Source: Bacteroidia bacterium (GTDB lineage: Bacteria > Bacteroidota > Bacteroidia > Chitinophagales > Saprospiraceae). Taken from it: DNA of 64,000 nt. The position numbers and the translations under genes were made by a program. The DNA lies in NCBI GenBank assembly GCA_030430845.1, contig JAUIKE010000012.1, positions 1 to 64,000 of the forward strand. The letters run 5' to 3'. The notes below the pieces were generated by a model that did not search any database, had not been told where the DNA came from, and was given only the letters and a program-made list of their open reading frames with translations. Below are positions 7,294 to 63,407 of the stretch, in pieces (position 1 is the first letter of the stretch; each line of letters starts with the position of its first letter).

Positions 7294-8760
7294 ATGAAAG
7301 CAATACAAGAATTTATCTCTTTGTTACAAAAGTGGGGGGTTACCTCCGCCGAAGGATTGAAGATTCCTTTCAAAAACGAATCACAAACCAAGCAGCTTTT
7401 CCATTTTTTACAAGACCAGGAAAGCCCGGTCGATTTATCTTCTATCAATATTCATCCTCGAATCATTCGTTCCCTGGAGGCTCAACTACTTAGGTCACTT
7501 TTTTTGGTGGACACTAAAAAAATGGGGAAAACACCCCGCCAGCAAGCATATTATTATTGTTGGAAAAACCTATGCGCCGTAAAGGTATTATTAGGACAAT
7601 CGGCTCATCAGGCAGCCATCCACCTTACTAATAAAGTTCTTTACAGGGCAAAAAAATATGATTTGCCCGACCTCTGCCTGGAGTGCTACAAAATACTCCG
7701 ATGGTATTATGGGTGTATAGATGTAAGTAGCTCACGTTATCAAACGTATGATCAGTTGTTAAAAAAACAGCAAGATGCTTGTGCGGCGGAACAAGTAGCT
7801 GAGGATTATTATATTTTTTTGAGTAATGTTTATCAGACAGACAAAGGCCAGCGTTTGTTCCTGGCAGATCAGGCCTTGAAATATTGGGAAGAAGTCTCGT
7901 CTTTAATGGCCGAATATCGCTCCAGACGATTGCATTTTTTAGGGCACCTCATTCATGTATTTCATTATTCCTGTGCCGGAGAATTTCAGGGTGCCATATG
8001 CGCCAATGAACAGGCAGTCAGTTATTTTGAGCAAACAGAAGGTGCAAGATCTACTTATTTATCGCCTTTCCTGAACCATCAATTGGCCTGTTGCGTGAAG
8101 TTAAAGAAGCTGGAAATGGGAGAAAGTTTAATCAGCAAAATAGAAAAGCAGGTCAAAACAGGCTCCTTTGACTGGTTTATAACCCGGCAGCAATACTTCC
8201 TATTAGCCATGCACAGCCGTCATTATGAACGAGCTCGCAATATTTTAAAACAGGCGGTATCGCAGCGGCGGTTTAAATATTTGAGCAGAACCCAGTTTGA
8301 AAGGTGGAGGATCAACCAAGCATACCTATACTACCTGGAATGTGTAAAACGTCTGAGCACGCCTCCAAAATCTCGTCGGGGTTTCCATGCAAAAAAGTTT
8401 TTAAACTCTGTGCCTTTATACGCGAAAGACAAACGCGGTATGAACGTCCCCATTCTGGTAATAGCCATTCTCATCTTGCTGGCCGAAAACCGATACAGTG
8501 AGGTCATAGACCGAACCGAAGCACTGGACAAATATCGGCGCAGGTACCTAAAAACAGAGGATGCCTACCGAAGTAATTGTTTTATACAAATGCTAACGAC
8601 GCTTCCGAAAGCCAATTTTCATCCAAAAGCAGTAGAAAGAAAGACAGAAATTCACAGAAAAAATCTTGCCCAGGTACCACTCCAGGTCTCCCCTCAGGCT
8701 TTTGAATTGGAAATTATTCCCTATGAAGACCTATGGATAATGGTGTTGGAGTCGCTGTAG
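7294..8760 (+). CDS. large alpha-helical (TPR-like) hypothetical protein
   Basis: ORF 7225..8760 with better start MKAIQEFISLLQKW at 7294; helical repeat-like composition. Confidence 0.6.
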   Translation: MKAIQEFISLLQKWGVTSAEGLKIPFKNESQTKQLFHFLQDQESPVDLSSINIHPRIIRSLEAQLLRSLFLVDTKKMGKTPRQQAYYYCWKNLCAVKVLLGQSAHQAAIHLTNKVLYRAKKYDLPDLCLECYKILRWYYGCIDVSSSRYQTYDQLLKKQQDACAAEQVAEDYYIFLSNVYQTDKGQRLFLADQALKYWEEVSSLMAEYRSRRLHFLGHLIHVFHYSCAGEFQGAICANEQAVSYFEQTEGARSTYLSPFLNHQLACCVKLKKLEMGESLISKIEKQVKTGSFDWFITRQQYFLLAMHSRHYERARNILKQAVSQRRFKYLSRTQFERWRINQAYLYYLECVKRLSTPPKSRRGFHAKKFLNSVPLYAKDKRGMNVPILVIAILILLAENRYSEVIDRTEALDKYRRRYLKTEDAYRSNCFIQMLTTLPKANFHPKAVERKTEIHRKNLAQVPLQVSPQAFELEIIPYEDLWIMVLESL

Positions 8761-8803
8761 GAATAGTGAAGTGAACTCTAATTTTTTCAGATTGAAGGCG
8801 GGG

Positions 8804-8935
8804 CGCTAGTGACCTGGTGACTTGGAGTCACCAGGTCACTAGCGACTTTTGCCTGGCCCTCACAAAGTTACTGCAAATTACCATAGCTTGCCAAAGCCTT
8901 GTCCGCTTTTGTCCGCTTTTGTCCGCTTTTGCAAA
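8804..8935 (-). repeat. composite intergenic element copy 1 (hairpin + TAACTTTG + CGGACAAAAG decamers), minus orientation
   Basis: Perfect 19-bp stem CGCTAGTGACCTGGTGACT/AGTCACCAGGTCACTAGCG, CAAAGTTA at 8863, three TGTCCGCTTT decamers at 8900-8929. Confidence 0.9.
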
Positions 8936-8989
8936 GTTTTGCAAGGTTTTGCAAGCCTGCCCGTATGGTGTTTTGCCAGGTTTTTCCCC

Positions 8990-16882: not shown

Positions 16883-17009
16883 TGCAAAAGCGGACAATTT
16901 CGGACAAAAGCGGACAGATATTAGCGGTTGACCGGATTTGGGGGTAACTTTGCAGGGCGGAAAAAAGTCGTTAGTGACCTGGTGACTTGGAGTCACCAGG
17001 TCACTAACG
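16883..17009 (+). repeat. composite intergenic element copy 2
   Basis: GCGGACAATTTCGGACAAAAGCGGACA, TAACTTTG at 16945, 19-bp stem CGTTAGTGACC.../...GGTCACTAACG at 16969-17009. Confidence 0.9.
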
Positions 17010-62554: not shown

Positions 62555-62665
62555 ATCGGACAAAAGCGGACAAGCACTCAGATAGCTGGCGATTTTGGGC
62601 TACCTTTGTACTGGAAAATAAAGTCGCTAGTGACCTGGTGACTTGGAGTCACCAGGTCACTAGCG
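62555..62665 (+). repeat. composite intergenic element copy 3
   Basis: CGGACAAAAGCGGACA, TACCTTTG at 62601-62608, perfect 19-bp stem 62625-62665. Confidence 0.9.
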
Positions 62666-62708: not shown

Positions 62709-63407
62709 ATGATATTAATCCTATTAGCCCTGGCCCTCGCCCCCGGAATTGCCATCGCTTTGTACATTTTTTATAAGGACCAGCATGAGCGGGAGCCGAC
62801 TCGATTGCTCATCAAGAGCTTCCTTTACGGGATCGGTAGCGTCATTGTAACGCTTGCCATCAGCTATTCCATACTTGGAGAAACGATGGTCTTTGGAGCC
62901 AGAACACTCTGGGATTATGTGGTCGATGCCTTCTTGGTCGTTGCCCTTGTAGAGGAATTTTCCAAGTTTATTTTTGTGCGGTGGCTGCTGTATCCCAACA
63001 AAAATTTTAATGAACCCTTTGACGGGATCGTCTACTGCGTCATGGTAAGTATGGGCTTTGCTACCCTGGAGAACGTCCTGTATGTCATGGAGGGGGGGAT
63101 TGGCGTCGCTATGCTGAGGATGTTCACAGCCGTTCCCGCCCACGCTACTTTCGCCGTCATTATGGGCTTTTTTGTTGGAGAAGCTAAGTTTCTGCAGCGA
63201 AACAGGACACTTTACCTGATCATAGGTATTTTGGCCGCAACCATCGCTCATGGTTTTTATGATCTGTTTTTGTTCTTGCAGTATCCGACTGGTATATGGG
63301 TGGGAGCTTTCGTATCCCTTTTCATAGCTCTTTGGTTGAGCAGAAAGGCCATCAAAATTCATCAGGAGGCTTCGCCTTTTAAAGAAGTAGAAGACTCGAA
63401 TCCCTAG
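62709..63407 (+). CDS. PrsW family intramembrane metalloprotease
   Basis: FYKDQHEREPTRLLIKSFLYG; VALVEEFSKF; EPFDGIVYCVMVSMGFATLENVLY; AHATFAVIMG. Confidence 0.88.
   Translation: MILILLALALAPGIAIALYIFYKDQHEREPTRLLIKSFLYGIGSVIVTLAISYSILGETMVFGARTLWDYVVDAFLVVALVEEFSKFIFVRWLLYPNKNFNEPFDGIVYCVMVSMGFATLENVLYVMEGGIGVAMLRMFTAVPAHATFAVIMGFFVGEAKFLQRNRTLYLIIGILAATIAHGFYDLFLFLQYPTGIWVGAFVSLFIALWLSRKAIKIHQEASPFKEVEDSNP

Follow-up and report, generated by a model that had tools for sequence, protein, structure and literature searches.

A dispersed family of short intergenic repeats with a phased decamer array, a putative promoter and a central palindrome in a Bacteroidota genome

Introduction

The closest described counterparts of the repeat family reported here are the Correia elements (NEMIS) of Neisseria. 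These are non-coding multicopy insertions of ~105–155 bp with putative promoters inside them, a site for IHF and a strong stem-loop, and both filled and empty sites are known for them (PMC2229807). The family from our genome resembles them in being MITE-like, with many non-coding insertions, a putative promoter, a strong stem-loop, and both filled and empty sites. However, Correia elements have 24-bp terminal inverted repeats and a target-site duplication, whereas no terminal inverted repeat was found here. Our family also differs in that the palindrome is central and a phased decamer array is present, and its sequence is unrelated.

For the RUP repeat of Streptococcus pneumoniae, mobilization in trans by an IS has been proposed (PMC2229807). 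RUP and BOX repeats of that species likewise have about 100 intergenic copies, but they show no sequence relation to the family, and no partner IS was found here. BOX repeats are built of modules; an internal unit varies in number, and a stable stem-loop is present. We know of no sigma promoter at fixed spacing in either RUP or BOX.

REP elements and their transposases (REP/RAYT, GTAG/CGTC superfamilies) are similar in that they, too, involve short, multicopy extragenic palindromes with a patchy distribution. The two REP superfamilies are defined by an unpaired tag, GTAG or CGTC. In contrast, the palindrome described here has no such constant unpaired tag, its stem is perfect and symmetric, it does not flank a RAYT gene, and it is embedded in a composite of ~200 bp (PMC3733652).

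A literature search for described palindromic repeats from Saprospiraceae returned none. The family is new in sequence and architecture; its general kind is already known.

Copies in the window and across the genome

The window, i.e. the complete stretch of 64,000 nt which was analysed, belongs to a genome of 9.1 Mb in 396 contigs. It contains three copies (Table 1). For these, the sequence-only reading had described a constant order of decamers, a gap of 29, 28 and 28 bp, the box TAnCTTTG, a second gap of 18, 16 and 16 bp, and a palindrome with 19-bp arms; coordinates and spacings were reproduced throughout. The palindrome is 41 bases long with a 3-nt centre in all three copies, and the loop of copy 2 (TGG) is inverted relative to that of copy 1 (CCA). 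The array of copy 1 runs on upstream as CTTGC/TTTGC-AAAA units to about position 8955. The next ORF after the palindrome of copy 3 has its start codon at 62709, with 43 bp in between.

Table 1. Coordinates of the three repeat copies within the window
Feature	Position	Strand	Remarks
Copy 1, three CGGACAAAAG decamers	8900..8925	-	CGGACA at 8920-8925, 8910-8915, 8900-8905
Copy 1, -7 promoter box TAACTTTG (putative)	8863..8870	-	29 bp past last decamer
Copy 1, perfect palindrome	8804..8844	-	19-bp arms, loop CCA; 18 bp past TAACTTTG
Copy 1 as insertion, approximate extent	8760..8985	-	absent from G001:C108:31818-32438
Copy 2, three decamers	16891..16916	+	CGGACA at 16891, 16901, 16911
Copy 2, -7 box TAACTTTG (putative)	16945..16952	+	28 bp past last decamer
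Copy 2, perfect palindrome	16969..17009	+	19-bp arms, loop TGG; 16 bp past TAACTTTG
Copy 3, two decamers	62557..62572	+	CGGACA at 62557, 62567
Copy 3, -7 box TACCTTTG (putative)	62601..62608	+	28 bp past last decamer
Copy 3, perfect palindrome	62625..62665	+	19-bp arms, loop TGG; 16 bp past TACCTTTG

The genome-wide search for decamer, spacer and box which the same reading had proposed revealed copies far above chance: GCGGACA-N26..33-TANNTTTG matched 24 times in the genome and once in the reversed control. The full hairpin (73–74 matches) and the paired decamers CGGACAWWNNCGGACA (131 matches) had 0 matches in the control. The family consists of about 75 short intergenic pieces which are scattered through this one Bacteroidota genome.

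A set of 73 copies was collected together with their flanks. The elements are non-coding, intergenic, and ~200 bp long, and they have a common module order. A decamer array is found in nearly all of them, mostly with 3–5 ten-bp units of the GGACA, TGCCA, TTGCA or TTCCA type; CTTGC/CTGCC/CTTCC-type units also occur. This helically phased array probably serves in protein binding or in bending. A CCATACGGGCAGGC-like module, often located further to the left of the array, is present in 34 of the 73 copies (3 upon shuffling), and a ACTCCAATATT tail is present on the right side in 45 (2 upon shuffling). Neither of these two modules is an inverted copy of the other, and the element ends are approximate.

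Copies of subtype A were analysed where a decamer was present (49 copies). Subtype B (~23 copies) is characterized by the conserved A/T-rich segment TTTGCGTCCAAATAAAATTTTGTGAATCTTG (median identity 0.86) and a 26-bp stem, and is devoid of a good -7 box at A-type spacing.

Fixed spacing and the predicted promoter

Random spacing between the modules was not seen on the genome scale; as had been claimed from the window copies, the spacing is held while the sequence diverges. Among the 49 A-type copies, TAnnTTTG is found 28 bp past the last decamer (last GGACA) in 26 and 29 bp past it in 2, and these 28 copies compare to a mean of 0.15 in 1000 shuffles. When anchored on the array, the conserved positions are T6/G8 (-33-like TTG), TG15-16, A20-22 (an A-tract), and G28. 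The remaining spacer is near-random, with a median pairwise identity of 0.43. Many of the other A copies carry near-miss boxes such as GAACTTTG. About 40% of the A copies have no intact -7 box, so copies can persist without the promoter.

Primary sigma signals in Bacteroidetes are TAnnTTTG at -7 and TTTG near -33 (PMC7366714, PMC9723704). The earlier assignment of TAnnTTTG as a -7 box agrees with this at the sequence level, given the 28 A copies and the conservation of T6/G8 ~20 bp upstream, where primary-sigma promoters also have a conserved TTG-like position (PMC7366714). What differs from these promoters is the setting, a dispersed repeat. An A-subtype copy would thus carry a primary-sigma-type promoter 28 bp after the phased array. 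Because the Bacteroidetes -7 box is located at -12 to -5 (PMC9723704), we infer that transcripts of A copies would start about 10–15 nt before the palindrome. If the promoter fires, ~30 outward promoters have been placed at random between genes, a ready source of regulatory variation.

Insertion and dispersal

A genome from the same genus (G001), which is syntenic at ~70% identity, has no copy of the element. Where copy 1 is located, G001 has a short intergenic region without the element. At a second site (C262:2808, locus L145), the stop codon of a gene is followed at once by ~210 bp; in G001, hardly any sequence separates the orthologue of this gene from the one behind it. Both comparable sites are thus empty in the relative, each being compared at ~70% identity and with approximate ends; with respect to a target-site duplication, the G001 intergenic parts are too diverged at both. 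At the site of copy 2, other sequence several kb in length is present in G001. The L145 copy has a second perfect hairpin (GAAAGCCTGCCTGGCCAGG...CCTGGCCAGGCAGGCTTTC) at its decamer end (L145:2920-2990), within the part which is missing from G001.

The hairpin was not found in 40 relatives at ≤3 mismatches, and a search of GTDB-220 contigs, viral contigs, phages and plasmids gave no match. Among the genes in the flanks of the collected copies, no autonomous partner was seen. A-type pairs less than 40 kb apart tend to be more alike in their spacer than distant pairs (p=0.019, eight pairs), which fits local spread. Two near-identical copies (L135:4792 and L136:5366) adjoin homologous genes for proteins of ~1010–1026 aa, and this pair has probably spread via segmental duplication.

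We consider it fairly probable that these are ~75 non-coding intergenic insertions, each ~200 bp long, of a species-specific MITE-like family which is mobilized in trans and carries an array, a promoter in subtype A, and a central palindrome. The copies would be moved by a separate enzyme, and the modules would be kept because the copies need them to spread. Of the three functions which had been suggested from the window alone (sRNA family, regulon leader, mobile promoter cassette), the last is the best: the family is dispersed and intergenic, it is absent from the syntenic G001 sites, and its promoter geometry is conserved, with the promoter itself being a predicted one. Taken as a whole, the copies resemble a new selfish repeat of intergenic regions more than a system for gene control.

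Related hairpins in other genomes

The palindrome core GGTGACT-NNN-AGTCACC occurs in 10 of 299 genomes of the order, with up to tens of copies each. In these relatives, core copies are mostly without a promoter, and decamers were found in none of those examined. In G022 (L066, L072, L076, L085, L094), a TGTCCTGG-like motif is followed by TAACTTTG and then by the related hairpin GGCTAGTGGCCAGGCGACT. The order of promoter and hairpin is the same as in the window family; the upstream parts differ.

In two further genomes, from other genera, related hairpins are bordered by mostly locus-specific inverted repeats which abut the stem. This applies to 21 of 28 hairpins in G286 (L237-L242, L259-L278) and to 12 of 31 hairpins in G017 (L246-L249, L279-L298), compared to ~2% in swapped controls. 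The repeats from G286 are up to 26 bp long (one of 40 bp). Some G286 arms have in common a repeat of the CCGCAGAGGCGGAGAG type, and a larger composite may account for part of them. For L239, a copy in G286, an empty-site check yielded orthologues of the left gene, the 3′ ends of which had diverged. The two genes at this locus are convergent, and the repeat extends into the coding end of each; both genes end in VLV-stop.

The inverted flanks likely originate from template switching past the stem, or from an insertion which creates inverted flanks. A broader and rather speculative reading, to which we give little weight, is that the core is a family-wide mobile or self-propagating DNA hairpin which copies its own flank, inverted, to the other side on arrival or by fold-back synthesis, and which in the window species is now part of a promoter-bearing composite. 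If true, this would be a new insertion mechanism, one that produces inverted instead of direct target duplications, and the inverted borders of the relatives would allow a direct test of fold-back or template-switch palindrome growth or spread.

The core being a multicopy palindrome in several genomes of the order is also what would be seen if the hairpin were a REP-type element of single-stranded DNA which a RAYT (REP-associated tyrosine transposase) mobilizes, with promoter and decamers as passengers. Y1_Tnp proteins are encoded in 6 of 6 genomes tested, and the G017 hairpins are imperfect, as in REPs. However, neither the element nor its core lies within ~1.5 kb of any of the five Y1_Tnp genes of the genome itself (some loci being shorter due to contig ends), and the same-genus genome has seven Y1_Tnp matches yet no element. 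Together with the perfect, untagged stems, this makes a REP origin unlikely. Downstream of one Y1 transposase gene of the genome (C324) there is a different perfect hairpin of 27 bp (TTTAGGAGGTCG..., L096:3177-3233), perhaps from another palindrome family.

Gene context, covariation and loop inversion

The repeats might instead represent a regulon or sRNA family, in which an activator acting on the decamers drives ~30–50 transcripts with a strong 5′ hairpin kept for its RNA function. The fixed distance between decamers and promoter despite sequence divergence would fit, as would the predicted hairpin RNA (-36 to -38 kcal/mol, z -6 to -10) and the arrangement in G022, where TAACTTTG precedes a related hairpin behind different upstream motifs. 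The gene context is random, however. Flanking-gene arrangements are about equally frequent (20/18/15/14), and the downstream gene is co-oriented for 33 and counter-oriented for 38 of 71 copies; for promoter-intact copies the ratio is 13 to 14. Downstream genes are unrelated, promoter-intact copies included, and no convincing recurrent gene family was detected beside the element, small recurrent ORFs being translations of the element itself. This speaks against a regulon leader.

The palindrome itself argues against an sRNA family. At 17 of the 19 stem positions the pair is of the Watson-Crick type in 73 of 73 copies, and at the other two in 70–72. Pairs 12, 17, 18 and 19 vary between two to four Watson-Crick types and are never G-T (G-U in RNA); under selection on RNA, one would expect G-U intermediates to persist. 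In 38 copies the centre reads CCA, and in 22 it reads the inverse, TGG. T-runs follow the stem in only 15 of 73 copies, so that there is no consistent terminator, and an Rfam search of the window matched only a tRNA. A regulon or sRNA family is therefore, in our view, even a little less plausible than a REP origin. It is highly improbable that the palindrome is a bidirectional terminator or mRNA 3′-end stabilizer between genes: copies are intergenic and often within 60–90 bp of the next gene, and several G017 and G286 hairpins are located at gene 3′ ends, but there is no bias for convergent genes (15 of 67 copies with both neighbours), T-runs are uncommon, and decamers and promoter would be left unexplained.

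We return to the MITE-like family. Covariation without G-T, combined with a flipped loop, looks like a DNA process and not like RNA selection. Homogenized arms and an inverted spacer are the published signature of template switching by DNA polymerase (PMC8604942). We infer that such switching during replication would keep the stem perfect and flip the loop. Pair 20 is almost never paired in A copies (3 of 50), so the stem ends at a set point. Variation is almost absent from the 35-nt palindrome core, while the spacers of A copies have almost fully diverged. Since even mutation is expected of a freely decaying transposon, this points either to selection on the copies or to homogenization of the palindrome. 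The family represents an unusually clean natural test of palindrome upkeep, with 73 copies in which arms change only in matched pairs and loops flip.

One B-type palindrome appears to be interrupted by an IS with the ends GGGCRTCCCTGAAAAG, across an assembly break between the end of G000:C109 (L212) and the start of G000:C262 (L145:1-116). GTGTTAG is found on both sides of this IS, possibly as a target duplication of 7 bp. A further palindrome of subtype B is truncated close to where contig C184 ends (L214).
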